Assembly (NCBI GenBank): GCA_937923405.1
Contig: CALDUY010000002.1
Span: 496,001 to 560,000, forward strand
Length of the DNA: 64,000 nt
Direction of reading: 5' to 3'
Origin: an uncultured Gemmataceae bacterium
GTDB taxonomy: Bacteria > Planctomycetota > Planctomycetia > Gemmatales > Gemmataceae
The notes under the pieces were generated by a model, which was not told the DNA's origin, did no database searches, and saw only the letters and a program-made list of their open reading frames with translations. Numbering within the stretch: position 1 is the stretch's first letter; each line of letters opens with the position of its first letter. Shown here in pieces: positions 1 to 39,639 of this stretch. Made by a program: the position numbers and the translations under genes.

Positions 1-926
1 GTTGAGACCTCGAGTGGGCGAGCAATCGCAGAAGCCAGGGCCACGGCAAAACTTTGCATGTTGACATGGCGATTCTGCGGATTCCGCTCCAGGGCGCGCA
101 GACAAACTTGAGCAAGTCGGGGCGGCACTTCGGGGCGGAGTTGTCGCGGGTCGATCAACGGATACGCCTGCAACCGCCCCATGAAGTGTTCTCGCAGGTC
201 TGTGCGCTCTGGCCAGGGAAGTCGACCAGTCAATAGCTGATAGAGGATCACCCCCAAGGAATACACGTCCCAGGTGATATGAGGGAAGATTGCTGGGGGA
301 TCAGGAAGGAGTACCGCCTCGACAACTTCGGGCGGAATGTAGTCCCGAGTGCCGCCAATTCGACGAGTGATTCGCGCAAACGGATCGGTTAGCGACAGGG
401 CCAATCCAAAATCGACAATGATCGGTTCGCTATCTCTCGTGATGAGGATGTTCGCTGGTTTCAGGTCACGATGCAGGACGCCGGCATCGTGGGCATGCTG
501 CATGGCCGTGGCCAGCGTGTGAACCAGTGTCGCGGCATTGACAGGTGAAAATCCTCCGCCGCGGTGCAGCACTGTGGCCAGTGATTCGCCCACGATCAAA
601 GGCATTTCTAGATAGGGAACACCTTCCACCTCGCCCGCTTCCACCAAGCCACAAAGATTGGGATGGTGCCGCAAATTCCTCAGCGCTCGTACTTCTTCGT
701 CGAACTGTACGCGGCTTTCTTCACTTCGGAACTCGTCTTTGGGGATTTTTACGGCGCAATGTCGTTGGTGATTCTGATGGTAAGCACAATAGACCACGGC
801 CATGCCGCCATTTCCGAGTTGGCCTCTCAAGACATATGGCCCAAAGTACCTAGGCAATGGATCCCTTTCTGTCGCTTTCGGATCCGAGTGAGTCATCCAG
901 TCGCCCGTAGGATCGTCATGGCTCAT
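1..926 (-). CDS. Ser/Thr protein kinase, 3' end outside window
   Basis: Hanks-type Ser/Thr kinase reading from an ATG at 926 and leaving the window still open, so only the first ~308 residues are seen. Visible motifs in order: glycine-rich loop LGNGGMAVVY (about 37-46), catalytic Lys60 in CAVKIPK, HRDLKPANIL with Asp154, DFG at 172-174, an activation segment ending GTRDYIPPEV, and DVYSLGVILYQLLTG of helix F. All core catalytic residues are present, so an active kinase is expected. The start codon lies inside the last codons of the upstream TDO-like gene (11-bp overlap), which suggests translational coupling. It is the third gene of a minus-strand operon with a TrpRS-like and a TDO-like protein. 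Substrates and the C-terminal part cannot be seen. Family assignment is secure; partnership with the upstream genes is inferred from the overlap. Confidence 0.9.
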   Translation of the reverse strand, partial: MSHDDPTGDWMTHSDPKATERDPLPRYFGPYVLRGQLGNGGMAVVYCAYHQNHQRHCAVKIPKDEFRSEESRVQFDEEVRALRNLRHHPNLCGLVEAGEVEGVPYLEMPLIVGESLATVLHRGGGFSPVNAATLVHTLATAMQHAHDAGVLHRDLKPANILITRDSEPIIVDFGLALSLTDPFARITRRIGGTRDYIPPEVVEAVLLPDPPAIFPHITWDVYSLGVILYQLLTGRLPWPERTDLREHFMGRLQAYPLIDPRQLRPEVPPRLAQVCLRALERNPQNRHVNMQSFAVALASAIARPLEVS

Positions 927-2376
927 CGCGGGGCTCCCGATCCTCCGCTGCATCCCGAATTCGGTCATGTGGCTCCTGCTTCACCTGAGATGTCGACCAA
1001 CTCCACGAGTCGCTTTCCACCAGAGGCAGCAAGGGACGCCGTCCTACTTTTGGAGCGACTCGGCTGGCCACGATCCATTCGCTGGACAGCGCGCGTTCCA
1101 GATCGAGCAAGCTCTGCTGTTCGATTTCAGCGGCACGCTGCTCAGAATGGACGAATAACCCTTCGCGCAAGAACTGGCGAAGATAGTGGTAGCCCGATGT
1201 GCCTCCCGTCGCCGCTACCGCACCGTCTCCTGAGCCAGAGGGCCGGCCCAAATACTTGACGGCAAAGGCGACATGACGGCCACGCCAGCGCAGCAACGCT
1301 TCGTCGAAGTCAGCAGCGGCTTCGCGGACCTGATTCCAGCGAAGATCCCCTTGTTGTTCCAAGCGATGAATCTGTGTTCGCAAACTGACGAAGTCAGGGT
1401 GGTGATAGAGTCGCAAGTCGCGCAACGAGCGATTCTCTCGATAGATCGGTAACTTTCGCGCATCGACACCGCGCAAGTGGATATCCAAGAGTTGATAATT
1501 CCGTGATTGGACAGCGCTACCGCGTTCGGTGTACTCACGGAAAGCGAGGAAATGTTCGGGCGGCATGGTCCACAACACTTCAAAGGTGCGAAACAAAAAT
1601 TGTACGACGGCAGTGCCCTGACGCAGACTCTGCTCTGCCGCTTCCCATTGGCCCAGGCGTAGCTGTTCAATTGTCTCTAGCACGAGTACGCGCAAAGCAA
1701 AAAAGCAGAGTTCACTGATGTGAATGGTTCGTAGAAAGCACACTTCATCATGACAGATGGTCTGCGGAAAGCAAGAGAGATGCAGCAGGGCACTGGTTCC
1801 ACCCGGTTGGCGGGCATAGCCTTCCAGAGAGGCATATCGGGTACCCAAGAAATCAGTTTCGTTCCATTTGGGCAAACTAGATGCTTCGAGTTCCCTTTCA
1901 GACTCCTTGAGAACTCGTTCGATAAGCTCGATCCGTTGATGAACAATGGCAGGAGCGAAATCGTTGCACTGAAACCAAACTTCTCCTCGCTGGCTGGCAG
2001 ATTCAAACCGCGCCAGGTCTCGTAGCAATAACATCGCACCGCGTACCGCCTTGCCTTTGAGGATCTCAATTGGTGCATGACTGGGGGACAGATACCAATC
2101 GATCACCCCAGTGTCGGTGTACGAGTAATAGCTGATCGGTTGCGGCTGACTAAGCATATAGAGGGGAAACGTCACCTCACGCAAGAGAGCGGCGAGTCGT
2201 CGCGTCTCTCTGCCGAAGTCCTCACAACGTAACGCTCGAAGAGCCAAGCGGTAGCCTGGTTGCCAAGTAGCCAGAAGCTCGCTGGGAAGGCGGCGTCTTC
2301 CCCCGGCTCGCTGACCGAGAATCAATTCGGGCACGGCTAGGCGGTTGACTCGGCGAGTGAAGAGGCGTTCATTCAT
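916..2376 (-). CDS. Tryptophan 2,3-dioxygenase-fold protein with long N-terminal extension
   Basis: A 486-residue protein whose second half follows the tryptophan 2,3-dioxygenase (TDO) pattern. CHDEVCFLRTIHISELCF at 208-225 matches the HDEMLF...H..YELWFK block and His209 aligns with the distal substrate-contacting His. FREYTERGSAVQSRNYQLL at 279-297 matches FRD..GP.SGFQS, with Arg280 at the carboxylate-binding position. LRWRGRHVAFAVKYLG (362-377) supplies His368 at the proximal haem-ligand position, and ATGGTSGYHYLR (389-400) matches GTGGSSG..YL with Thr390 at the substrate-binding Thr. Haem binding and indole oxidation are therefore plausible. Unlike ordinary TDOs (~280-300 residues), it has ~180 extra N-terminal residues and a ~70-residue charged tail. 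Typical kynurenine-pathway genes are absent; the neighbours are a TrpRS-like protein 12 bp upstream and a kinase overlapping downstream. The substrate could be another indole. The fold call rests on motif alignment by eye. Confidence 0.72.
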   Translation of the reverse strand: MNERLFTRRVNRLAVPELILGQRAGGRRRLPSELLATWQPGYRLALRALRCEDFGRETRRLAALLREVTFPLYMLSQPQPISYYSYTDTGVIDWYLSPSHAPIEILKGKAVRGAMLLLRDLARFESASQRGEVWFQCNDFAPAIVHQRIELIERVLKESERELEASSLPKWNETDFLGTRYASLEGYARQPGGTSALLHLSCFPQTICHDEVCFLRTIHISELCFFALRVLVLETIEQLRLGQWEAAEQSLRQGTAVVQFLFRTFEVLWTMPPEHFLAFREYTERGSAVQSRNYQLLDIHLRGVDARKLPIYRENRSLRDLRLYHHPDFVSLRTQIHRLEQQGDLRWNQVREAAADFDEALLRWRGRHVAFAVKYLGRPSGSGDGAVAATGGTSGYHYLRQFLREGLFVHSEQRAAEIEQQSLLDLERALSSEWIVASRVAPKVGRRPLLPLVESDSWSWSTSQVKQEPHDRIRDAAEDREPRDEP

Positions 2377-2388
2377 AGTCTTGTTGGG

Positions 2389-3084
2389 TCAGAGACCAAG
2401 AAAGGCGCGGAACTCGTCGAGTGTCTCCACGGCCTGTTCTTTGGCCCTTAACGCGCCTAGTTTGAGGATGTCTTCCACATCGTCACTATGGGTTTGCCAA
2501 TATTGATATCGATCTCTCACCATCGCTTCACTAAGGTGCGGGGAGCAAGAGTCTGGTAGAATCTGCTCTATTTGAGGGAGAGGAAATAGCAAGTACTGTT
2601 GTCCGGTGTTGATCTGTCGAGCGAAGGAAGCGGCTCGTTCGATGGATCGGCTACAATCAGTGGTAGTGGTAAGGACAGCTCGGGTGACTCGAAAGGTCAG
2701 TAGCAGAGCCGCCTCAACGTCTATTGGAGAATTGGCTATGTTCTGGCTCGGCGCAATCGCTGACATCAGCACTGCCATCTCTGCGATCTGTGGCACTTCC
2801 GATTGACGGAACAACACTGTCTTGCGGGTGTCGACTCCAATTGCTAGCAGAGCGCACGTCGTATCCCGCAAACACTGCTGGCGTTGTGCCGCAGCGAGAG
2901 GGTGAGAGAGCAGGGCATGATCTTGCAAGGCCAAGAATGTTTGGCCGGGATACTGGTGCTGCATTCTCAGTAGAGGGGAGAGAATCTTCAAGTAGTGGTC
3001 GAGAACAACCACGGATTGCGGCATCGCGCTGGCAAGTATTCGAGTGGGAAAGGTACAGAGGCAGGCTAGTTCACCAGATAGCAT
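2389..3084 (-). CDS. Degenerate tryptophanyl-tRNA synthetase-like protein (no HIGH/KMSKS)
   Basis: The 231-residue product aligns along its length with bacterial TrpRS. RILASAMPQSVVVLDHYLKI corresponds to the strand carrying the HIGH-like motif, QYPGQTFLALQDHALLSH to the ..DQHA/DLHA segment, and LRDTTCALLAIGVDTRKT followed by LFRQSEVPQIAEMAVL to LR..T...LA.GIDP.K...F.QS.VPEHA. The C-terminal helix ending LKLGALRAKEQAVETLDEF also matches. The HIGH-type glycine is replaced and the whole segment with KMSKS and part of the anticodon-binding helices (~90 residues in E. coli TrpRS) is missing, so tRNA charging is unlikely. The ATG at 3084 was chosen because it has a GGGGAG site 8 nt upstream and TrpRS similarity begins right after it. 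The frame stays open back to 3405, but that extension lacks similarity and overlaps the divergent transporter. It might bind tryptophan, an adenylate or RNA; this is inference. Confidence 0.7.
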   Translation of the reverse strand: MLSGELACLCTFPTRILASAMPQSVVVLDHYLKILSPLLRMQHQYPGQTFLALQDHALLSHPLAAAQRQQCLRDTTCALLAIGVDTRKTVLFRQSEVPQIAEMAVLMSAIAPSQNIANSPIDVEAALLLTFRVTRAVLTTTTDCSRSIERAASFARQINTGQQYLLFPLPQIEQILPDSCSPHLSEAMVRDRYQYWQTHSDDVEDILKLGALRAKEQAVETLDEFRAFLGL

Positions 3085-3350
3085 AATTTTTGCTCCCCAG
3101 GGCCACTCTTTGACACCGAGGAGACCCTTTGAACCATTGGAATGAAGGAAACTCAGTTCAGCAAGCAAAAAGAGATAGAACTTCAGTAGCTGAGCTTGGA
3201 ATCGCTTGGTGGAGATGGGCCGATCGAGAAAAATCGAAAAAATCGTCGAAAAATGGCCACTCGCCATTCTCTTAACGATTGTAGATTTGTTAGTGTAATC
3301 TACTTGAAGGGAAGCCCGAACCATCGCCCGAGCGAAACAGAGAGAGAGCC

Positions 3351-4502
3351 TTGTCTTTCCGATTATCGGTGATGATGTTTTTGCAGTGGGCGGTGCCCGG
3401 CTCACTGATCCCGCTGTACAGCCTACGTCTGGAGCGACAGCTCCTGTTCGAGCCGAGGATTACCGGATTTTGTTGCGCCACCCAAGCCGCTGCCGGCGTC
3501 ATTTCCTCGTTACTAGCCGGTCAAATTGCCGATCGCTGGATGTCGGCGGAAAAGATCATGTCCTTGTGTGCCACGTTGGCTGGGCTAGATCTGTTCTTGT
3601 TGGCGGAGTTGCGCGAGCCGACCTCCGTGTTTTTCGCCACCTTATTTTTCTGGGTCGTGACGGGGCCGATGTTGTTGTATGGCACAACAATTTCGTTCGC
3701 TCATTTGCCCGAACCGGGCCGACAGTTCGGGCCGATTCGCATGTGGGGGACGATCGGCTGGATGGGGATCGGCTATGCGATCAGCTTTTACTCAGGAGAT
3801 GCCTTACACGTCGGCGGAGCAGTGGCGTTATTACTGGCGGTCTATGCGTTGACTCTGCCAGCCACTCCGCCGCGACGTCCCGATTCCAACGAACCTAACG
3901 TTCGATTTGCCCCACTGAAGGCGCTGGGACTGATGCGAAAACGCTCGTTCGCCATCTACGCTGTGTGCATGCTCGGAGCCTGTATCACCTTCCCCTTCAC
4001 GACTCAGAATAACTCGCTGTTGTTGGAAACCCTAGGTGTCGAGAAACGCTGGTTGACCTCGGTGCTGACTATTGCCCAGGCGACCGAGGTGATTGGTCTG
4101 GCTTTGTTGCCTACGATTTTGCTTACCTTCGGGGTACGCTGGACGATGGCGATCGGGCTGGCATCCTGGTTGGCCGCGATGTGCATTCTCTCGATCGGCG
4201 AACCGTTGGAACTGGTGCTAGGGTCGATGGCTCTCAATGGCTTGTACGTCGTTGGTTTTCTCATCGCGGGACAGGTCTACGTCAACAGCCTAGCTGAGGG
4301 CGACATTCGCGCGAGTGTGCAGGGATTGCTGGCGTGTATTGGCGGGATCGGCACCTTGTTGGGAAATGTGCTGGTTGGCTGGCTGCGCCAATTTAATCAT
4401 GGCGCACTACCTCCGACGTTCGCGGTGGCTGCGGGGATCACTGGCGGTATTCTGCTGCTGTTCATGCTCGGGTTCCATCAACCGCGGCGACCGTTGGAGT
4501 AA
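3351..4502 (+). CDS. MFS transporter, nucleoside:H+ symporter (NupG)-like
   Basis: A 383-residue polytopic membrane protein with about 11-12 hydrophobic segments. It opens with LSVMMFLQWAVPGSLIPLY, resembling the FLQFFIWGAW... start of the NupG/XapB nucleoside permease family, and contains the typical RMWGTIGWMGIGY segment of helix 4-5. The TTG at 3351 is taken as the start because GAGAGAG lies just upstream and it precedes the first helix; ATGs at 3372/3375 would cut into that helix. It is transcribed divergently from the TrpRS-like/TDO-like/kinase operon across a short gap and followed by a tRNA gene. The substrate could be a nucleoside or a related small molecule. MFS membership is secure and NupG-type specificity is tentative. 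Confidence 0.8.
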   Translation: MSFRLSVMMFLQWAVPGSLIPLYSLRLERQLLFEPRITGFCCATQAAAGVISSLLAGQIADRWMSAEKIMSLCATLAGLDLFLLAELREPTSVFFATLFFWVVTGPMLLYGTTISFAHLPEPGRQFGPIRMWGTIGWMGIGYAISFYSGDALHVGGAVALLLAVYALTLPATPPRRPDSNEPNVRFAPLKALGLMRKRSFAIYAVCMLGACITFPFTTQNNSLLLETLGVEKRWLTSVLTIAQATEVIGLALLPTILLTFGVRWTMAIGLASWLAAMCILSIGEPLELVLGSMALNGLYVVGFLIAGQVYVNSLAEGDIRASVQGLLACIGGIGTLLGNVLVGWLRQFNHGALPPTFAVAAGITGGILLLFMLGFHQPRRPLE

Positions 4503-4608
4503 CGCCGAACTCGCTTGCAAGATTTTCGCGTCAGGGGACTCCCCAAACGATCATTTTGTGCTTAAAATATTCAACAGGATTCGCCTTATTCGCCCTGGAA
4601 AGCCCATT

Positions 4609-4683
4609 GGCGGCGTAGCTCAGCCCGGTTAGAGCAGCGGCTTCATAAGCCGCGTGTCACTGGTTCAAATCCAGTCGCCGCTA
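4609..4683 (+). tRNA. tRNA-Met (CAU), elongator type
   Basis: A complete cloverleaf can be drawn: acceptor arm GGCGGCG pairing with CGCCGCT, D-stem GCTC/GAGC, anticodon stem GCGGC/GCCGC with loop TTCATAA (anticodon CAT), variable loop GTGTC, and T-arm ACTGG-TTCAAAT-CCAGT. The discriminator is A and no CCA is encoded. Position 1-72 is G-U, unlike the unpaired C-A of initiators, so this is elongator tRNA-Met or, less likely, a lysidine-modified tRNA-Ile(CAU). It stands 106 bp after the MFS gene. Confidence 0.93.
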
Positions 4684-4701
4684 CTGTACGCCCTTGCGCT
4701 A

Positions 4702-4787
4702 TGGTTTCAGCGATCCGGACGAACTACGAATTCAACGAATTAGCCGCCTGAATTCGTTAAATTCGTACTTCGTATAGCGTGAAACCA
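4702..4787. repeat. Large imperfect palindrome next to tRNA-Met
   Basis: Two nested inverted repeats. The outer arms TGGTTTCA (4702-4709) and TGAAACCA (4780-4787) match perfectly. The inner arms at 4720-4741 and 4751-4772 match at 20 of 22 positions around a 9-nt loop. There is no T-tract, so it is not a standard terminator. It sits between the tRNA-Met and the truncated 5' edge of the recombinase remnant, so it may mark an element end, a crossover site or a MITE insertion. Confidence 0.75.
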
Positions 4788-5553
4788 ACGTCACGGGCTG
4801 CCCAGCTCGACGTACGGTGTTGCCTACAAGCCGCACCAGATGACCTACGCCAGCGAACTGATCGAGTGCGGCCACTGCGGATGCCCGATCATCGGTGAGA
4901 CGAAGACGAAGAAGACGAAGACCAGCGAGCGGGAATACGTCTACTACCGCTGCACGAAGTGCCACAAGGGCGATCATCCCCGGACCCGGCTCACCGAGGG
5001 CGAGATCGACACCCAGATCCTCGGCCTGTTCGACCGGCTGCGGGTCGGGGACGACGAGTTCCGGCAGGTGTTTGTGGATGAGCTACGGCAGGCGACGAAC
5101 GGGGAGTTGAGCCGGTCGTCGCAGGAGGGGAGTGACCTGAAGAAACGCCACTCCGAGGTCGTGCGGCTTCAGGGGCAATTGCTGAACCTGCGGCTGAACC
5201 ACGAGATCGACGCCGAGACCTTCGCCGCCAAGGGGCGAGAACTGCGGGACGAGGAGGCGGCGTTGCGGCTGAGGATCGAGGCTTGCAGTCGGGGGCGGAA
5301 CGAGGCCATCGACCTCGCTGTGAAAGCGTTTGAACTCTCGCAAAACCTGCGTTCCCACTGGCTTGTGGCGGATTATGCCGAGAAGCGGCGGGTGCTGGAA
5401 ATCGTCTTTTTGAACTTCCTGCTGGATGACGCAAACCTTGTCCCGATAACAAGAAAGCCCTTCGACGTGCTCGCCGAAGGGCTTGTCTCGAAGAATAGTC
5501 GGGGCGACTGGATTCGAACCAGCGACCTCCTGAACCCCATTCAGGCGCGCTAG
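4783..5553 (+). pseudogene. C-terminal remnant of a large serine recombinase
   Basis: The open frame after a stop at 4780 reads YGVAYKPHQMTYASELIECG and then CGHCGCPIIGE...YVYYRCTKC, the zinc beta-ribbon (Recombinase_Zn_ribbon) with its Cys pairs. A basic linker and a long coiled coil rich in Glu/Arg/Leu (about 4.99-5.35 kb) follow, as at the C-terminus of large serine recombinases. The N-terminal resolvase domain with the catalytic Ser and the Recombinase domain are missing; the break falls at the palindrome. The last codons are not authentic: the frame runs through the terminator hairpin at 5455-5484 and into the antisense of tRNA-Pro, giving the familiar spurious GDWIRTSDLL tail. An ATG at 4840 exists, but a working protein is not expected. 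It is the relic of an integrative element between two tRNA genes. Confidence 0.85.
5455..5484 (-). terminator. Probable intrinsic terminator of tRNA-Pro
   Basis: A perfect 10-bp stem (5455-5464 with 5475-5484, AAGCCCTTCG/CGAAGGGCTT) with a 10-nt loop lies 15 bp beyond the tRNA-Pro 3' end. On the minus strand it is followed by TTCTTGTT, a short weak T-rich tract. It overlaps the 3' part of the recombinase remnant. Confidence 0.6.
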
Positions 5554-5573
5554 CCAAGCTGCGCCACGCCCCG
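5499..5573 (-). tRNA. tRNA-Pro (GGG)
   Basis: The minus strand folds as acceptor CGGGGCG/CGCCCCG, D-stem GCGC/GCGC, anticodon stem CCTGA/TCAGG with loop ATGGGGT (anticodon GGG), and T-arm GCTGG-TTCGAAT-CCAGT (one mismatch at the stem end) with discriminator A. CCA is not encoded. C1-G72 and the GGG anticodon fit proline. It converges with the recombinase remnant, whose reading frame runs into it, so its 3' half could be an old attachment site. Confidence 0.93.
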
Positions 5574-5581
5574 AGTGGTGT

Positions 5582-5614
5582 AAATGTTCTTCCTTAATCA
5601 ATTTAGGAACATTT
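5582..5614. repeat. Inverted repeat upstream of tRNA-Pro
   Basis: Arms AAATGTTC (5582-5589) and GAACATTT (5607-5614) are nested inside a second pair, GGTGTAA near 5577 and TTACACC near 5628. The AT-rich block is just upstream of the minus-strand tRNA-Pro and could hold its promoter or be a repeat scar. Nothing else is recognisable between 5574 and 5854. Confidence 0.4.
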
Positions 5615-5854
5615 CACCATCGGTATCTTACACCATGGTCGTACATTCGACAAGAGCGAACTTTCCTCCCCTTTCCCCTTGGTTCCGTTGCTTGCAGGCA
5701 GGCTCTGTCGTTCGCTGCACCAACAAATATCTATCGTGTGGTACTACTTCCCCTCTCGTTGCCGTTCTCAGCAGTCCGACTCTAGTCAGTCGCGATGTGG
5801 CTCCCGAGAATGATCCTCGACTCGATGCCCCGACCCGTAGTGGAGGATTGCTTT

Positions 5855-7009
5855 ATGTCACGTTGGGTTCGCGTTGGAGTGCTACTAGCGCTGACCGTAA
5901 GCCTGCTGTTCGTCGCTTCGGCCTCGCGTGCCGAGGATTCGGTTACTTCACTGATTGCTCAGATCAGCAAAGTTGGTCGTGAAGGGGTAGGCAACGAGCA
6001 AGCCGCTGTTGCCTGGAAAGCACTAGTACAGCAGGGCCCAAAAGCACTGGTGCCGATCCTCACCGCCATTCGGGACGATGCACCGGTCGCCAATAACTGG
6101 TTGAGGCCGGCATTCGAGGCCATCGCCGAGAAAGCTGTTGCCGAGGAGAAATTGGCTGCCGAGCCGCTCGCTAAATTCGTCGACGATACCATGCAAGCCG
6201 GCTCCGCTCGCGCCTTGGCTTACGCCTGGTTGGTCAAACTCGACAAATCCACTCCGGATCGTCTACTTCCCAAGATGTTGCAGGATCCCTCGGCGGAGTT
6301 GCGGCGACTGGCCATCGCTCGAGTGCTTCGCCAAGCCGAGACCTTTGTTGAGAACAACGACGACGTAGCGGCCAAGGCGACATTGGAGAAGTTGTTACCC
6401 GTGGTTGGCGATCCGGAACAACTCGACACCATCGCCAAGGGATTGGACAAATTCGGTGTCAAAATCGATCGGGCCAAAGTCGCTGGCTTTGTGACCACCT
6501 GGCATCTGATCGCTCCGTTCGATCATCGTAAGGGCATCGGCTGGGACGTGGCCTATCCGCCGGAAAAGGCGATCGATCTCGCGGCGACGCTACAAGGAAA
6601 GGAAGGCCAACCGATCCGCTGGATCGCCCATACGACTAAGAGCGCCACGGGCGTGGTCGATCTCAACCAGACGCTGGGCAAATTCAAAGGGGCAATCGCT
6701 TACGCCGTCGCCTTCGTGGAGTCCCCCGAGGAACGACAGGTGGAACTGCGGGCTGGCTGCATCAATGGCCTCAAAATCTGGCTCAACGGAAAACTGGTGT
6801 TCGCCAATGAAGAGTATCATCACGGCATGAACGTCGATCAGTACAAGGCGCGAGGCAAGCTCAACAAAGGCGTCAACACCATCCTGTTAAAGGTGGCTCA
6901 GAACGAACAGACGGAGAACTGGGCGCAAGAGTGGCAATTTCAGCTTCGCATCTGTGATTTCGTGGGAGCCGCCGTGCCGTTTTCGTTGGTCACCAAGGAG
7001 AGCAAGTAA
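5855..7009 (+). CDS. Secreted protein with HEAT-like region and C-terminal jelly-roll-like domain
   Basis: The 384-residue product starts at the ATG at 5855, with TGGAGGA 8 nt upstream; the frame extends to 5795 but without such a site. The N-terminus MSRWVRVGVLLALTVSLLFV followed by ASASRAED is a classical signal peptide. An alpha-helical, alanine/leucine-rich stretch (about 30-210) resembles HEAT-type repeats. The C-terminal domain contains LKIWLNGKLVFANEE and LNKGVNTILLKVAQNE, a pattern seen in carbohydrate-binding-like beta-sandwiches of planctomycete secreted proteins. The stop overlaps the start of the PQQ-propeller gene (TAATG), so the two are co-translated. A specific function cannot be given; a structural or binding role outside the cytoplasm is likely. 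Confidence 0.75.
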   Translation: MSRWVRVGVLLALTVSLLFVASASRAEDSVTSLIAQISKVGREGVGNEQAAVAWKALVQQGPKALVPILTAIRDDAPVANNWLRPAFEAIAEKAVAEEKLAAEPLAKFVDDTMQAGSARALAYAWLVKLDKSTPDRLLPKMLQDPSAELRRLAIARVLRQAETFVENNDDVAAKATLEKLLPVVGDPEQLDTIAKGLDKFGVKIDRAKVAGFVTTWHLIAPFDHRKGIGWDVAYPPEKAIDLAATLQGKEGQPIRWIAHTTKSATGVVDLNQTLGKFKGAIAYAVAFVESPEERQVELRAGCINGLKIWLNGKLVFANEEYHHGMNVDQYKARGKLNKGVNTILLKVAQNEQTENWAQEWQFQLRICDFVGAAVPFSLVTKESK

Positions 7010-8196
7010 TGAAGACTATCCGGATAGTAATATTGGCTCTTCTGAGCGGCTCGATCGGTCTGGCCGAGGAGTGGGGCGGCTTCCGCGGCACCACGGGCAG
7101 TGCCGTCTCCAACGAGACCTCGCTGCCGTTTAAGTGGAGCAAGGACGAAGGCCTCCGTTACAAGGTCGCTCTACCGGGACGCGGACTATCCAACCCGGTC
7201 ATCGCCGGCGGACGGATCTACTTGACGGCTTGTTCGGGATATCGTGAGACTCGATTACACGTTCTTTGTCTAGAAGAACAGACTGGCAAGCAACTCTGGG
7301 AGCGACAGTTCACCGCCACGGGTAGCACTGCCTGCCATCCCGTGTCCAACATGGCTGCTCCGACTCCCGTGACCGATGGCAAGGCTGTCTACGCGCTATT
7401 TGCCACTGGAGACTTGGCCGCTTTGGATCGCGACGGCAACCTGCTGTGGTATCGCTCTCTCGTTGGCGACTATCCAACCGTGTCTAACCAAGTGGGCATG
7501 GCTTCCTCGCCGAGGTTGGTCGGCAATATCGTATGTTTGACGATGGAAAATGTCGGCGATTCGTTCCTCGCGGGCCTCGACAAAAAAACAGGCAAAAACC
7601 GTTGGAAGATTCCGCGGCCTCGGGAGATTAACTGGACGACGCCAATCGTGCTGGATTCGGGATTGGTACTGTTCCAGAACGGCCAGGAGGCAACGGCGGT
7701 CGATCCGGAAACGGGCACGGTTCGCTGGAGGCTAAAGGGGAGTTGGTCGACGATTCCCTCGCCGACGGCCGGCGAGGGGGTGGTTTATCTGCCGGGGCAA
7801 CAGCTCAAAGCGGTCAAGCCGCGTCAAGGTAGTGACCAGCCCGACGAACTGTGGGAGGGAGGGGTAGTCACGGGCGGCTATGCCTCACCAGTCTATCATC
7901 GGGGACGTATCTACGGACTGACCAAGAACGCGGTCGTGTGCCTCTCGGCCAGCGATGGCAGTGAGCTTTGGCGCGAGCGAGTCAACGGACCTTTCGATGG
8001 TTCGCCTGTCATCGCCAACAACAAACTCTACGCAGTGAACGGCAAAGGGTTGACCTACGTCATCGAATTAGGCGAGAAGCCAACCATCATTGCACGCAAT
8101 GACATCGCCGACACCATCCAGGCAACGCCCGCAATTGCTAATGGTTGTATCTATTTAAGATCTGATAAGTATCTCTACTGTGTCGGTCCGAAATAG
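7009..8196 (+). CDS. PQQ-like beta-propeller protein (BamB/PQQ repeats), secreted
   Basis: A 395-residue protein with a signal peptide (MKTIRIVILALLSGSIGLAE) and then WGGFRGTTGSAVS, the usual W..FRG..G opening of planctomycete PQQ-propeller proteins. Several PQQ blades are visible from their ...TG...W... turns: EEQTGKQLWERQF, DRDGNLLWYRSL, DKKTGKNRWKIPR, DPETGTVRWRLKG and ASDGSELWRERV. Such propellers usually act as scaffolds or binding modules. No catalytic dehydrogenase partner or haem motif is present, so enzyme activity is doubtful. It overlaps the preceding secreted-protein gene by three bases, and the two probably work together. Confidence 0.85.
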   Translation: MKTIRIVILALLSGSIGLAEEWGGFRGTTGSAVSNETSLPFKWSKDEGLRYKVALPGRGLSNPVIAGGRIYLTACSGYRETRLHVLCLEEQTGKQLWERQFTATGSTACHPVSNMAAPTPVTDGKAVYALFATGDLAALDRDGNLLWYRSLVGDYPTVSNQVGMASSPRLVGNIVCLTMENVGDSFLAGLDKKTGKNRWKIPRPREINWTTPIVLDSGLVLFQNGQEATAVDPETGTVRWRLKGSWSTIPSPTAGEGVVYLPGQQLKAVKPRQGSDQPDELWEGGVVTGGYASPVYHRGRIYGLTKNAVVCLSASDGSELWRERVNGPFDGSPVIANNKLYAVNGKGLTYVIELGEKPTIIARNDIADTIQATPAIANGCIYLRSDKYLYCVGPK

Positions 8197-8270
8197 ACTA
8201 TCAGCAGCGAGGATTGGCCATTAATGTGCGTCGCAAGATGACGAAGCGGCAGCGGGATAAGAAGCTCTTG

Positions 8271-8380
8271 CGCAGGCTAAAGCCTGTGGCTACCTACGCA
8301 GGCTTTAGCCTGCGTGTGTGAAGCGCGGTCTAAAGCCCGCGGCTACCACAGGCAAGGTAGTCGCAGGCTTTAGCGTGCGC
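8271..8380. repeat. Cluster of palindromic REP-like repeats (GCAGGCTTTAGCC family)
   Basis: Four copies in alternating orientation: 8271-8294, 8295-8314, 8323-8347 and 8356-8380. Each is built on GGCTTTAGCC or its complement GGCTAAAGCC, usually flanked by GCTACC/GGTAG. Neighbouring inverted copies can form hairpins. A related half-copy lies at 17571-17596. The array follows the PQQ-propeller gene and may act as a transcript-end structure or be a spreading palindromic element. Confidence 0.85.
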
Positions 8381-8427
8381 TTCGCGACACCGGTTCGCAG
8401 AACGCTCTAGCCGAAAGCGGCCATTGC

Positions 8428-9303
8428 TCAGTTTACTCGTTGAGTCAGAGAGGCGTACATCTCGGGGCGACGATTGGCCAGGAAGCGCCAGGCACGTTGC
8501 AGGGCAGGGACGCGAGACAGGTCGCACTCGGTGAGGACGAGTTGCTCCTCGGAGCCGGCCCGATTCAGGACGTGGCCAGCAGGGCCGGCGACGAAGGAAC
8601 CGCCCCAGAAGGTGATGGCCCCCTCACGTCCCACGCGATTGACCGCGGCGACGTAGACGTTGTTCGCCGCCGCATGCCCGACCTGAGCGGCTCGCCACAT
8701 CTGCTCCCAGTCGCCAGTGATGTTCTCTTCGACCGATTCGTCGATCACGCCAATGGCAGTGGGATAAATCAGGAGTTCAGCGCCCTGTAAAGTCGCGATT
8801 CGAGCTGCTTCGGGATACCACTGGTCGTAGCAGATCAATGGAGCGAGGCGACCGACCGAGGTCGAAAAGACGCGAATGCCGGTATCTCCGGGAGTGAAGT
8901 AGTGCTGTTCGTGATACAGCAGGTCCTCGGGAATGTGCGTCTTGCGATAGTTGCCCAGCAGAGTGCCGTCGGCCTCGAAGACGCTGGCGGTGTTGTAGAA
9001 CTTGCCATCGCTGGCCTTCTCGAAGATCGAGCCGCCAACCAAGACGATGCGATGTCGACGGGCGGCCTGAGCGAGTGCTTCCGTCGTCGGACCTGGGATC
9101 ACTTCGGCGCGGTCGAAGGCGGTAAAGTCGTCTTTGCGTTGGCAAAAGTACGGACCGAGGAACAACTCTGGTAGGGCCACTAGTTGGGCTCCCGCGTGGG
9201 CGGCTTCGGCGACGTGTTTGAGGGCACGTTGGAGGTTGTCCGCTGGCGTACCATCGCAGGGCATTTGGACCAACGCTAACTTGATCGCTCGACTCGACAT
9301 CAT
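8428..9303 (-). CDS. aguB: Carbon-nitrogen hydrolase, N-carbamoylputrescine amidase (AguB)-like
   Basis: Nitrilase-superfamily enzyme with the full Glu-Lys-Cys triad: Glu46 in ALPELFLGPYFCQ, Lys121 in YRKTHIP and Cys158 in PLICYDQWYPEA. The GPYFCQ, HEQHYFTPGD and CYDQWYPEAAR segments are characteristic of N-carbamoylputrescine amidases, which convert N-carbamoylputrescine to putrescine, CO2 and ammonia in the agmatine route. Two tandem ATGs (9303 and 9300) follow a GAGGAA site; the frame is open to 9372, but that part overlaps the divergent gene's upstream region. Length (~291 aa) is normal. No agmatine deiminase (aguA), its usual partner, is seen here. A related omega-amidase role cannot be excluded. 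Confidence 0.85.
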   Translation of the reverse strand: MMSSRAIKLALVQMPCDGTPADNLQRALKHVAEAAHAGAQLVALPELFLGPYFCQRKDDFTAFDRAEVIPGPTTEALAQAARRHRIVLVGGSIFEKASDGKFYNTASVFEADGTLLGNYRKTHIPEDLLYHEQHYFTPGDTGIRVFSTSVGRLAPLICYDQWYPEAARIATLQGAELLIYPTAIGVIDESVEENITGDWEQMWRAAQVGHAAANNVYVAAVNRVGREGAITFWGGSFVAGPAGHVLNRAGSEEQLVLTECDLSRVPALQRAWRFLANRRPEMYASLTQRVN

Positions 9304-9370
9304 GGAAATTCCTCGGGGCAACTTTCGCTCTAGTCGTAAGTATACCCAGGAGAACCACGGAGGGCGATTC

Positions 9371-10141
9371 ATGCTCGAAGTTTGGCTCGAACGACTGTTC
9401 TCCAGCTGTCCGCTGTATCTACGCGAGATGGGCTATCTCGGCGAGATGCTGGGAATTCGTCGACGCCAACGGCGTTATCGCAAGGCTTGGGCGGAGCATT
9501 GCCGACGATCGCGACAGTTGATTCTGGCAGCGGCCCAACGCTGTTGGCAACGCCGACTGGCCGTCATCATCGGCTCGGGCTGGCTGCACGATGTGCCCTG
9601 GAAGGAATTGGCCAGGCAGTTTCAAGAGGTACACTTTGTCGATCTGTTTCATCCGGCATCGGTACGTTGGCATCTGTGGCGTCACCCGAAGATTCGACTC
9701 GTCGCTGCCGACGTGACCGGCGTGTTGGAACAAGTCTGGCGCTGCGGATTCGAGCGTCGCCCGCTGCCCACCTCCACCCCGAGCCTATATCTCGATCGTG
9801 CCGATCTCGATTTGACGGTGTCGTTGAACCTCCTGTCGCAATTGCCTTGCATGCCGGAACGCTATCTGCTCGCCTGTCGCTCACCTCACAGCATGGAGAC
9901 GCTGGCCTGGGGACGAGAACTGATCTGGGCACACTTGCGCTATCTGGAAGCGCTGCCCGGCGTAGTGACGCTTATCACTGACGTCGAGGTGTCCAGTGTT
10001 CGCGGCGTGAAAAACACGCTGTTCGGCCTGCCGTTGCCCTACGAGGGCGAAACGTGGACTTGGCCGTTGGTGCCCGGTAAGGAGTTGCTCCAAGTCGTCG
10101 GCATCGTGGATCTCAAACAGGCTCTCTCCCGTGATGCTTGA
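9371..10141 (+). CDS. Uncharacterised Rossmann-fold (SAM-methyltransferase-like) protein
   Basis: A 256-residue protein starting at the ATG at 9371 behind GGAGGG. After a basic helical N-terminus (MLEVWLERLFSSCPLYLREM..) it shows LAVIIGSGWLHDVPWKELAR, then VHFVDLFHPASVRWHLWRHP and IRLVAADVTG. This succession resembles motif I, the acidic end of beta-2 and motif II of class I SAM methyltransferases. The usual GxGxG is reduced to GSGW, so cofactor binding is unproven. The last 29 bp overlap the converging methyltransferase gene and 67 bp separate it from the divergent aguB gene. The family is one I recognise only as conserved hypothetical; no function can be assigned. Confidence 0.65.
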   Translation: MLEVWLERLFSSCPLYLREMGYLGEMLGIRRRQRRYRKAWAEHCRRSRQLILAAAQRCWQRRLAVIIGSGWLHDVPWKELARQFQEVHFVDLFHPASVRWHLWRHPKIRLVAADVTGVLEQVWRCGFERRPLPTSTPSLYLDRADLDLTVSLNLLSQLPCMPERYLLACRSPHSMETLAWGRELIWAHLRYLEALPGVVTLITDVEVSSVRGVKNTLFGLPLPYEGETWTWPLVPGKELLQVVGIVDLKQALSRDA

Positions 10142-10826
10142 TTTGGTACAAGGTACCTTTCTCGCGTCGTCCGCCAGGTTCGCCAGCGCGAAGCAACTGA
10201 GTGGTGTAGCTCAGTCCGGCGCGATCGAGCTGTTGTCGTAACAAATGTGCGGGCACACGCTCCAGATCGGTGAGCAAACAGATGCCGTCCTTGGTCAACA
10301 GATGTCGAATCAGTCCGACCAAGGGTTCGATGCTACTGTATTCATATAAGAGATCGGCAGCGAGTAACAACGGATAGTGGATACCCGAAGGGGGAAAACG
10401 CCAGTCGAGCTGTAGTGTGTCGAAGTCGCGGAAGCCATTGCGGCGAGCATTCTTAGCGGCGAAATGCAAAGCGGTGGCATCGTAATCACTGAAAGTCACG
10501 CGCATGCCGACCGCCAACCCGGCCAGACCAGGCAGGCCCAGGCCGCAGCCGATCTCCAGAGCGTGTAATCCAGCGGGCCAGGAGTGTCGCAGAATCCACT
10601 TGGCCAGCATCCGCGACGCAGGCCACAGGTCGGCCCAGTAAGGAACGTAGCCGTCCAGTTCGGGGCGACCCCGCACCGAGGGATGGCGCATCGCCTTGTC
10701 CGAGTCGCTGGGCTTTTCCAGCACGAAAACGCGATCTTCCAGCAGAACCTTTTCGAGGATACTCGGCCCCAATGCTTCCAGCGGCGTCGTAGGCATGGGA
10801 GGGCGAGAAGCAGAAACATCACTCAT
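10113..10826 (-). CDS. Class I SAM-dependent methyltransferase (METTL21/Nnt1-like)
   Basis: A 237-residue methyltransferase with motif I ALEIGCGLGLPGLAG, an acidic post-I motif VTFSDYDATAL and PLLLAADLLYEYSSIEPL as motif III/IV. The sequence VPYWADLWPASRMLAKWIL before motif I is the P.WA.LWPA block typical of the METTL21/Nnt1-like protein methyltransferases. The target is unknown; lysine side chains are the precedent in this family. The start ATG (10826) shares an ATGA overlap with the stop of the metallophosphoesterase gene, so the two are translationally coupled. The 3' end overlaps the convergent Rossmann-fold gene by 29 bp. Confidence 0.8.
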   Translation of the reverse strand: MSDVSASRPPMPTTPLEALGPSILEKVLLEDRVFVLEKPSDSDKAMRHPSVRGRPELDGYVPYWADLWPASRMLAKWILRHSWPAGLHALEIGCGLGLPGLAGLAVGMRVTFSDYDATALHFAAKNARRNGFRDFDTLQLDWRFPPSGIHYPLLLAADLLYEYSSIEPLVGLIRHLLTKDGICLLTDLERVPAHLLRQQLDRAGLSYTTQLLRAGEPGGRREKGTLYQIKHHGREPV

Positions 10827-11674
10827 GGCGAATCAAGCAGATGCACGCAGCCGGGCAACTCTTCAGGCAACAGGGGGCGATTCGCCGGAAGGAGGGCATA
10901 GGCTGCCGGACAACCCAAACAATCGAGAATCAACTGCCGAGGCGACGGCAGATCATAACCCTGCTCGCAGGGAATGTGCCCACTGACGAGCAGGTCGGCA
11001 TCGACCAAGCTCAAGAAACGCTCCAGCGTTGCCACACTAGTATCTCTTCCCCAGACGAGCGCGTATAACGAGCCACCCGGAGCAAGGTCGGCCTCTAGGC
11101 TGGGATCGTGCAGCAGGGCAGAGGGATCAAATTGATCGAGCAACCGCGGTGGGGGCAGGCTGTGGCTGAGGTAGATCCGATTCTTGGTCCGCAGGGCAAA
11201 GGGAATTACGGCGAACAGTTCCAGATATAGAGCATACACTTCGTCGGCTCGCTCGCCATAAGCGAGGCGAATCCCGTGGAGAAATTGTTCGTTCAGATCG
11301 TCCTCATGCTTCATCACTCGCTGTCCGGTGGCCTGGGCCAGTTCGTGATTGCCGATCAGATAGTGAACGCGGTCAGGATACTGACATTTCAGAGCGCAAA
11401 TAACATCGACGAGTTGATGCGACTTGTCGCCGCCCGTGGGGTAGCGAAACGGCCCGTGAATCAACTCTTGCACGAGGAAATGGCGGTGTGGGTGCCGGGC
11501 TAGATCGGCACGCTGGAGCAAGCGGCGGAAGTTCTCGACGTGCCCGTGTAAATCGCCGCTAACGAAGACCTCGTCGGCCTCCACAGCGATGAACCGTCCC
11601 TGTCGCCCCGGCGTGTCGCGGAAGGCACGCACGGCTCGGCGTAAGGTTTGTAGCCGCAGTTCCAGACCGGCCAT
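10823..11674 (-). CDS. Calcineurin-like metallophosphoesterase
   Basis: A 283-residue phosphoesterase with the metal-binding signatures GDLHGHVENF (GD.H motif), LIGNHELAQATG (GNHE), and histidines in YLSHSLPPP and SGHIPCEQG (GH.P) for the remaining metal ligands. The family hydrolyses phosphomono- or diesters with two divalent metal ions; the substrate is not predictable. The ATG at 11674 is preferred (AAGGA upstream, just after the DUF1080 stop at 11679), although the frame is open to 11773. It sits between a DUF1080 gene 4 bp upstream and a methyltransferase overlapped by ATGA, so all three probably share a transcript. Confidence 0.85.
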   Translation of the reverse strand: MAGLELRLQTLRRAVRAFRDTPGRQGRFIAVEADEVFVSGDLHGHVENFRRLLQRADLARHPHRHFLVQELIHGPFRYPTGGDKSHQLVDVICALKCQYPDRVHYLIGNHELAQATGQRVMKHEDDLNEQFLHGIRLAYGERADEVYALYLELFAVIPFALRTKNRIYLSHSLPPPRLLDQFDPSALLHDPSLEADLAPGGSLYALVWGRDTSVATLERFLSLVDADLLVSGHIPCEQGYDLPSPRQLILDCLGCPAAYALLPANRPLLPEELPGCVHLLDSP

Positions 11675-37387: not shown

Positions 37388-38530
37388 TTATCTCGATGAG
37401 GGATCGAGTACCGGCAAGGCATGTGATTTTGGCTCCACGATGCCACATTTGCGACGAATCCAATCTTGAAAGGCCCAGACTCGTTCCTCACGCCGGCCAA
37501 TAACCCCAGAAACTGGACTCGATTCCATGCCCTTTTGAGCAGCCGCAAATATGGAAGCATCTTCTTCCAGGATCTTACGCGCCCCTTCCTTGGCGACCAG
37601 AGTGTTTAACCGAGCAGAGATCCAGGCTAGCGGAGTTCGCCGCGGTCCGTAGGGACCGAATACGCGAACGATGGCTTGTGAAGTCGTCGGCGAAGTGGGA
37701 ACCACCATCTTAGCAAGACTAAACGTATCCATCAAAATAAACACGAGATTTGGGTAGACATGGTATTGCGTATACATTCCCCTGAAGGGAAGTCCCAATG
37801 CACGAGCTGTGCGTCGAGCATTGCTTTTAATCCACGGATTGACATCCTCGGTGTAGAAACTAGTCCAACGATCATTCATTTCATGAATAATCATTTCTTC
37901 GGGAGGCATTACTCCAAAGGTTTTTTGATGTAAGCAAGGAATGTGATAAGATTCGAGCAAATTTTCGATAGCTATTTTCCAGTTGGCAGGATAAGTTGTG
38001 TTCCATCCCCAAATCTGTCGAAATGGCTGTGAGAATGCATCGGCAATTGGCTGATACGTTTCTGCCAATTGATCTTTCAATGATGGTCCATCTGAACTGA
38101 GATTCACAAAAATCAAATCGCCACATCGTTCGGAACGATACTTCAGAATTCGAGCATTTTCTCGATCAAAAGGTCGAAACGATTGTGCATCCGGAATTTT
38201 TGCGGTTCGGCCATCACATTGATATTCCCAGCCATGATATTGACAGCGAAAGGCCTTTTCATGTCCTTTGGGCTTGCTAACGAGCATACAGTGGCGATGG
38301 CCACAAATATTGAGATAAACGTGAGCTTCACCGTCGATGCGTCGGACAAGTAAAGGTTTATTAAACAAATCTAGGGTAACGTAATCTCCGTCACGCTTGA
38401 AATCCCCCATCGAAGCAACTAAGTGCCAGCCCGATAACAGGCATCGATCGAGTTCTTGTTGGTATTGTTCCGGAGCAAAGTAGGCACGAGGAGGTAAAAC
38501 ATGCCTCAGTTGACTTTCATGGAGAAACAT
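37388..38530 (-). CDS. Rieske non-haem iron oxygenase alpha subunit, intact
   Basis: A 380-residue ring-hydroxylating-type oxygenase. The Rieske [2Fe-2S] ligands are Cys76 and His78 (CGHRHC) plus Cys96 and His99 (CQYHGW), a C-x-H-x17-C-x2-H arrangement. The mononuclear iron site has His196 and His201 (ESYHIPCLH) with Asp324 as the likely third ligand (EEDASIFAAAQKGM). Glu193 occupies the bridging position usually filled by Asp, as in carnitine oxygenase CntA. The overall pattern resembles GbcA/CntA-like monooxygenases of quaternary amines rather than aromatic dioxygenases, but no substrate can be fixed. No reductase gene is adjacent. A tandem paralogue lies upstream (38578-39639), and a Gfo/Idh/MocA gene follows. 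Confidence 0.92.
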   Translation of the reverse strand: MFLHESQLRHVLPPRAYFAPEQYQQELDRCLLSGWHLVASMGDFKRDGDYVTLDLFNKPLLVRRIDGEAHVYLNICGHRHCMLVSKPKGHEKAFRCQYHGWEYQCDGRTAKIPDAQSFRPFDRENARILKYRSERCGDLIFVNLSSDGPSLKDQLAETYQPIADAFSQPFRQIWGWNTTYPANWKIAIENLLESYHIPCLHQKTFGVMPPEEMIIHEMNDRWTSFYTEDVNPWIKSNARRTARALGLPFRGMYTQYHVYPNLVFILMDTFSLAKMVVPTSPTTSQAIVRVFGPYGPRRTPLAWISARLNTLVAKEGARKILEEDASIFAAAQKGMESSPVSGVIGRREERVWAFQDWIRRKCGIVEPKSHALPVLDPSSR

Positions 38531-38577
38531 GTAATCCCTCTCCGCGGCATAGGAGTAACCAATTTACAGGGAGCATT

Positions 38578-39639
38578 TTATTCAGGATTATTCGGAGAAG
38601 ACAAGCGAGAGACATACTCCTGAAACGCCCAAACACGTTCTTCGCGCCTTCCAATCACACCTGAGAACGGACTGGCCTGGATCCCTCGTTGTACTGCGGG
38701 AAAGATGGGCGCATCCTCGGCAAGGACCCGCTTGGCCACTTCCCGAGAGGCCCAGGCGTTCCCCTTGGCAAAGAGCCAAGGAATCATTCCGCGCCGTGGA
38801 CCAAATGGCGTAAACAGCCACACCATCGTACGCGAGGTGGTAGGCGAAGTCGGCACGACAATTTGAGCCAAACTCATCAAGTCCATTAGAACAAAGGTCA
38901 GATTGGGAAAAACGTGGTAGTGAGTATACTGCCCGGTAAAAGGCAACCCCAGCCATCGGGTGGTGCGACGAATACTGTTTTTTACCCACCTATCCATCTC
39001 ATTGGTCCGATACGAGGTCCACTCAGGATGGATTTCGTGATCGATGTTTTCTTCTCGTGGATAATTGCGAAACGTGGCAGCATGCAGACAAGGAATGTGG
39101 TAGGATTCGACGCCGTTCTCCAACGGAATTTTCCAATTAGCCTCATAATCGCAGATCCAACTCCACACCTGTCGAAACGGTGCTGAGAAGCCTCGTTCGA
39201 TCTGGGGAAATGTTGCTCCTAGCTGATCGCGCAATCGAATCGGGGAAGCAGAGAAGTTCACGAAGATCAGTTCCCCACAGCGAGCACTTGCATATTGTTG
39301 ATATCCAGGATCGGTTAAATCCACTTTAAGCAGTGACTCATTATGTTGGCTTAGCCTGATGTCACGAATCGACCCTTGTCGTTGAGTCGACAACGGGGTA
39401 TATTGTCCAGGACGTTGGTTCCGAATCGCGAGAAACTCTCCCTCCTGACGTACCACCATCACTGGCTGGTCAAGTAAGAACAACGTAACGAAATCTCCCT
39501 CCTTACTGAGATCAAATGTGGTTGTCACGAAATGCCAACTTGGCCGCAAGAGGTTATTCAATTCACGCTGATACTGTAGCGGCGAATAGTATTCTTCTGC
39601 GGACAATACGTGAGTCAACCGATTGGGATGGATGAACAT
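38578..39639 (-). CDS. Rieske oxygenase paralogue lacking all Rieske ligands
   Basis: The 353-residue product is clearly homologous to the downstream gene along most of its length (shared RCGELIFVNFS, ENGVESYHIPCLH, GLPFTGQYTHYHVFPN, VVPTSPTTS, SGVIGRREERVWAFQ). In the Rieske domain the C-x-H and C-x2-H segments are replaced by AIRNQRPGQYTPLS and DIRLSQHNESLLK, so no [2Fe-2S] cluster can form. The mononuclear iron ligands remain: His181 and His186 in ESYHIPCLH and the Asp of AEDAPIFPAVQRG. There is no frameshift and the length is normal, so this is not simple decay. It could receive electrons from the paralogue's cluster in a mixed trimer, or bind a ligand without turnover; both are hypotheses. 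The ATG at 39639 matches the paralogue's start. Confidence 0.85.
   Translation of the reverse strand: MFIHPNRLTHVLSAEEYYSPLQYQRELNNLLRPSWHFVTTTFDLSKEGDFVTLFLLDQPVMVVRQEGEFLAIRNQRPGQYTPLSTQRQGSIRDIRLSQHNESLLKVDLTDPGYQQYASARCGELIFVNFSASPIRLRDQLGATFPQIERGFSAPFRQVWSWICDYEANWKIPLENGVESYHIPCLHAATFRNYPREENIDHEIHPEWTSYRTNEMDRWVKNSIRRTTRWLGLPFTGQYTHYHVFPNLTFVLMDLMSLAQIVVPTSPTTSRTMVWLFTPFGPRRGMIPWLFAKGNAWASREVAKRVLAEDAPIFPAVQRGIQASPFSGVIGRREERVWAFQEYVSRLSSPNNPE

Follow-up and report, generated by a model that had tools for sequence, protein, structure and literature searches.

Two adjacent minus-strand genes in a 64,000-nucleotide stretch of an uncultured Gemmataceae genome (hereafter, the window) encode sister Rieske oxygenases, one of which has lost most of its [2Fe-2S] ligands and keeps its mononuclear iron site. 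The upstream gene (38578..39639) encodes the clusterless paralogue P0001 (353 aa), recognized by its open reading frame, Pfam match, alignment and a predicted full-length two-domain fold. The downstream gene (37388..38530), 47 bp away, encodes the intact sister P0002 (380 aa), supported by open reading frame, Pfam match, alignment and a confident AlphaFold2 model. The two proteins are 48% identical and form a sister pair with 100/99 support in a catalytic-domain tree. There is about an even chance that P0001 is an iron-bearing clusterless subunit that is fed electrons in trans by P0002 within a mixed trimer.

In the alignment, P0002 carries all four [2Fe-2S] ligands, C76-x-H78 and C96-x2-H99 (38234..38305, minus strand). 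The same columns of P0001 hold R76, G78, L96 and H99, and three of the four ligands are therefore gone: R76-P77-G78 (39406..39414, minus strand) replaces the first-loop Cys and His, and L96-x-x-H99 (39343..39354, minus strand) lacks the second-loop Cys and retains a His in the fourth ligand column (H99, 39343-39345), which is invariant in the alignment. The initial annotation had reported both Cys and both His as lost; this is correct for both Cys and the first His, but the second His column is still occupied. A single His is unable to hold a [2Fe-2S] cluster. In other oxygenases, the position of this surviving His would face the bridging acid of the neighbouring subunit. Pairwise alignment further places a deletion of 15 residues relative to P0002 immediately after residue 100 (residues 100-101, 39337..39342, minus strand), in a region of low model confidence (97-104), and the C-terminal tail of P0001 is also the shorter one; the length, which had been described as conserved, is thus not fully so.

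Profile scores follow the same division. The Pfam Rieske model scores 63 bits in P0002 and 15.7 bits in P0001, under the 20.3 cut-off, whereas the Ring_hydroxyl_A model scores the two proteins alike (85.8 and 88.8 bits in P0001 and P0002). By the C-x-H...C-x2-H signature of Rieske oxygenase alpha subunits, P0002 is a member and P0001, with R-x-G...L-x2-H, is not. The full C-H-C-H set is present in all 76 other complete subfamily homologues and in further ones checked later, so its loss in P0001 is not due to chance. A compensated frameshift or misassembly was also considered as the cause and rejected: the ligand motifs are absent from the other frames of the segment, and the lesion is therefore not a pair of compensating indels, in agreement with the earlier statement that the gene carries no frameshift.

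The second metal site is complete. P0001 keeps the mononuclear iron ligands H181 and H186 (39082..39099, minus strand) and the carboxylate ligand D309 (38713..38715, minus strand), as had been noted from the sequence, and the alignment adds the bridging carboxylate E178 (39106..39108, minus strand), which aligns to 6y8j as the equivalent of CntA E205. The corresponding residues of P0002 are E193, H196 and H201 (37928..37954, minus strand) and D324, so that both proteins possess the 2-His-1-Asp site together with the bridging acidic residue. In CntA, a head-to-tail α3 trimer, the cluster and iron of one chain lie 44 Å apart, and electrons must therefore cross to the neighbouring subunit; E205 carries them between subunits over 12.2 Å, and all E205 mutants are inactive (PMC7948474).

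The AlphaFold2 model of P0001 has a mean pLDDT of 90.9 and a pTM of 0.90, with a stretch of values under 50 only at residues 97-104, the loop around H99, which is disordered in the model; the P0002 model reaches a pLDDT of 94.0. Foldseek and VIA-align searches found that the P0001 model resembles Rieske oxygenases along its whole chain, with CntA as the best match (Z 31.9, 314 residues, 2.7 Å, spanning residues 4-349). P0001 is accordingly predicted to retain the two-domain architecture of a Rieske-like domain and an SRPBCC fold.

CntA, a carnitine monooxygenase of group V, is the best match by both structure and profile, and it shares with P0001 and P0002 a bridging Glu instead of Asp; unlike P0001, its cluster is intact. 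The group V aromatic residue two positions before the bridging Glu, which in CntA is the substrate-binding Tyr203, is replaced by Gly176 in P0001 and Leu191 in P0002. A quaternary-ammonium substrate is therefore not predicted.

Substitution patterns provide further evidence on the state of the stripped copy. Of the positions that are conserved across 90% or more of the subfamily, both P0001 and P0002 retain 25/25 in the catalytic domain. In the Rieske part, P0001 retains 10/23 and P0002 21/23, and the difference between the two halves of P0001 is significant (Fisher p = 6e-6). Relative-rate counts, the mean numbers of P0001-specific and P0002-specific changes over 74 outgroups that are related to each other and hence not independent samples, localize this loss. 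They are equal over residues 1-73 (8.5 versus 8.5), strongly skewed toward P0001 over residues 74-101 (9.4 versus 1.0) and 102-130 (5.1 versus 0.3), and again even over the catalytic domain (17.8 versus 18.1). Counts made with five single outgroups agree, with p values of 0.5-1 for the catalytic domain in all five and of 0.0002-0.12 for the Rieske part. The end branch of the stripped copy in the catalytic-domain tree is also the shorter one (0.34, against 0.44 for P0002). Synonymous sites of the pair are saturated and give no usable dN/dS ratio.

These comparisons indicate that the catalytic half of P0001 and part of its Rieske scaffold are being maintained, with constraint gone from the cluster-binding segment alone. 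A pseudogene reading is rejected by the rates, the conserved positions and the branch lengths, and the earlier view that P0001 is not decaying is thereby upheld. Relaxation confined to the cluster segment, with constraint on the catalytic site, the bridging Glu and the N-terminal portion of the Rieske domain, is the pattern expected if the cluster of a neighbour feeds the P0001 iron.

Under the mixed-trimer mechanism, a tandem duplication would have been followed by P0001 giving up its own [2Fe-2S] cluster and staying an iron-binding oxygenase subunit. P0001 and P0002 would assemble as mixed head-to-tail trimers in which electrons pass from each cluster to the iron of the following subunit, those from P0002 reaching the P0001 iron via Glu178. 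An iron site placed just after P0001 in the ring would be left without electrons. A ring would then have as many live sites as it has P0002 subunits, and P0001 would draw electrons away to an active site of its own that has diverged. The argument for such feeding is that a protein with an iron site and bridging Glu but no cluster can be an oxygenase only if the cluster of another protein supplies it. P0002, adjacent and co-oriented, is the obvious donor, and the spacing of the tandem genes on one strand favours co-expression. Metal binding by P0001, heteromer formation, in-trans electron transfer and any substrate are features that we infer.

The match of the P0001 fold to an α3 trimer and the alignment of E178 with the inter-subunit electron carrier of CntA both favour the mixed trimer, and the caffeine N-demethylases NdmA and NdmB provide a known case of related oxygenase alpha chains joined in a hetero-complex. 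These two form one α3-α'3 complex, described as two different trimers joined, and both Ndm chains keep both centres; if P0001 and P0002 likewise formed separate joined trimers, P0002 would not feed P0001. Against the mixed trimer, Glu178 and the His pair could also be kept for folding or for other iron chemistry, the disordered loop around H99 is the one that would face the neighbour's bridging Glu, and the pair was found in a single genome. We propose, tentatively and at somewhat under even probability, that the pair represents an asymmetrically wired bacterial ring, in which the intact sister supplies its cluster to a clusterless, differently tuned site and subunit mixing splits electrons between two chemistries. 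The inter-subunit route of Rieske oxygenases has so far been inferred from homotrimer structures and mutants. With a natural pair whose one member has the acceptor but no donor, that route could be tested directly on wild-type proteins; such a pair would also be a template for oxygenases in which the active site of one chain is powered by the cluster of another.

It is unlikely that P0001 is instead a non-catalytic structural or regulatory pseudo-subunit that binds P0002 or substrate, its iron site being a relic or structural only. Pseudo-enzymes commonly arise when one of two essential centres is lost. Precedent for such a role also exists in the beta-subunits of many oxygenases, which are non-catalytic scaffolds (PMC12445004). 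A scaffold, however, needs neither iron ligands nor a bridging Glu nor an unbroken set of conserved catalytic positions, all of which P0001 keeps at 45% catalytic-domain divergence.

Rather improbable is a P0001 homotrimer fed by a separate Rieske protein and not by P0002, for example a small Rieske ferredoxin from another locus of the genome. The model for this arrangement is NdmC of the NdmCDE 7-methylxanthine N7-demethylase of Pseudomonas putida CBB5, which has no cluster and takes its electrons from the Rieske domain of NdmD (PMC10380055), and the genome does encode one small free-standing Rieske protein, at contig C5:215599. That gene, however, is not near the pair, and genes of similar size are widespread among the PF00355 matches listed for 68 genomes of the family; moreover, the operon is without a reductase or ferredoxin gene. 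Besides this small soluble protein and the oxygenases, the genome encodes two Rieske proteins with a hydrophobic segment at the N-terminus. The likeness to NdmC lies in an iron-bearing catalytic domain without its own [2Fe-2S] centre, in-trans feeding being shown for NdmC and proposed for P0001. The NdmC donor is a reductase with an extra Rieske domain, whereas the candidate donor of P0001 is an intact sister oxygenase, and the first 73 residues of the Rieske-type domain, which are under constraint, are still present in P0001, unlike in NdmC.

Retention of the 2-His-1-carboxylate site with loss of electron input would also suit an iron enzyme independent of external electrons, such as an isomerase, a lyase or a cofactor-free dioxygenase; we consider this distinctly improbable, since P0001 also keeps the bridging Glu, a residue known for passing on electrons from the cluster of a neighbour. 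A decaying duplicate en route to loss, or a sequence artefact, is very improbable and already disfavoured: the lack of an orthologue in the other genomes searched and the single fast-changing segment speak for it, but rates equal to those of P0002 outside that segment, the full catalytic set, a branch shorter than that of P0002, and the lack of any stop, frameshift or alternative-frame motif speak against it.

In-trans feeding of clusterless oxygenases is already known, from NdmC/NdmD and from the chlorophyllide a oxygenase of Micromonas (MpCAO), which consists of two polypeptides (PMC9615114); the initial annotation named neither precedent. In the present pair, P0001 alone is stripped and P0002 keeps both centres, whereas MpCAO has the Rieske motif on one chain and the iron motif on the other; MpCAO is in addition eukaryotic and belongs to an unrelated subfamily. 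Searching the literature for oxygenases reported to be without a Rieske centre returned nothing past the NdmC and Micromonas precedents. The P0001/P0002 pair departs from these precedents in its presumed donor, an entire sister oxygenase, in how much of the Rieske scaffold the stripped chain keeps, and in having no dedicated reductase alongside.

The genomic context of the pair is compact. A Gfo/Idh/MocA-type oxidoreductase gene, identified by Pfam and profile match, starts 45 bp downstream of P0002 (36278..37342, minus strand), and a lipid A acyltransferase gene follows on the same strand 4 bp past it. With one strand and gaps of 45 bp and 4 bp, the P0001, P0002, oxidoreductase and acyltransferase genes are likely co-transcribed as a single transcript. 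A DUF420 gene is also among the operon neighbours by Pfam, and neither an NdmC-type dedicated reductase with an extra Rieske domain nor any other ferredoxin or reductase gene was found in the operon from the open reading frame list and the Pfam matches of neighbours. The Gfo/Idh-type oxidoreductase may act on the product of the oxygenases. Its nearest model is inositol 2-dehydrogenase, at 148 bits, far under the 355-bit cut-off. As a substrate clue, recurrence of the oxidoreductase and acyltransferase genes was sought by neighbourhood comparison, and they do not recur beside P0001/P0002 homologues.

No orthologue of P0001 was found in about 840 planctomycete genomes, covering the genus (one genome), the order (102 genomes), samples of the class and phylum, and two further families, nor in a GTDB contig scan, plasmids or viral contigs. 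The best match outside the source genome is 39% identical and has an intact cluster. The stripped-plus-intact pair is therefore found in one genome only, and the literature precedents differ from it. A search for the same pair in other genomes, proposed in the initial annotation, came back empty, which is weak evidence because the source genome (5.78 Mb) is the sole representative of its genus among those searched.

Tandem intact oxygenases of the same subfamily, in two or three copies, occur at three other loci: L061 (G332 C439), where one copy is cut by the contig end, L062 (G269 C80) and L114 (G762 C297). They are possible natural hetero-oligomers. In the tree, the copies at L061 and L062 belong to another clade than P0001/P0002, and these tandems therefore arose separately; both also adjoin a polyketide synthase-like gene. 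Such genes, grouped by single-linkage similarity, lie near members of the subfamily in 23/41 planctomycete loci examined, whereas the P0001/P0002 pair is not beside large genes of this type. The third copy in the source genome (L081, positions 2-10852 of G000 contig C5:46001-66000) lies inside a polyketide synthase cluster that encodes a KS-AT-KR-ACP protein, an AT-DH protein, a hydrolase/thioesterase and a MacB/FtsX permease.
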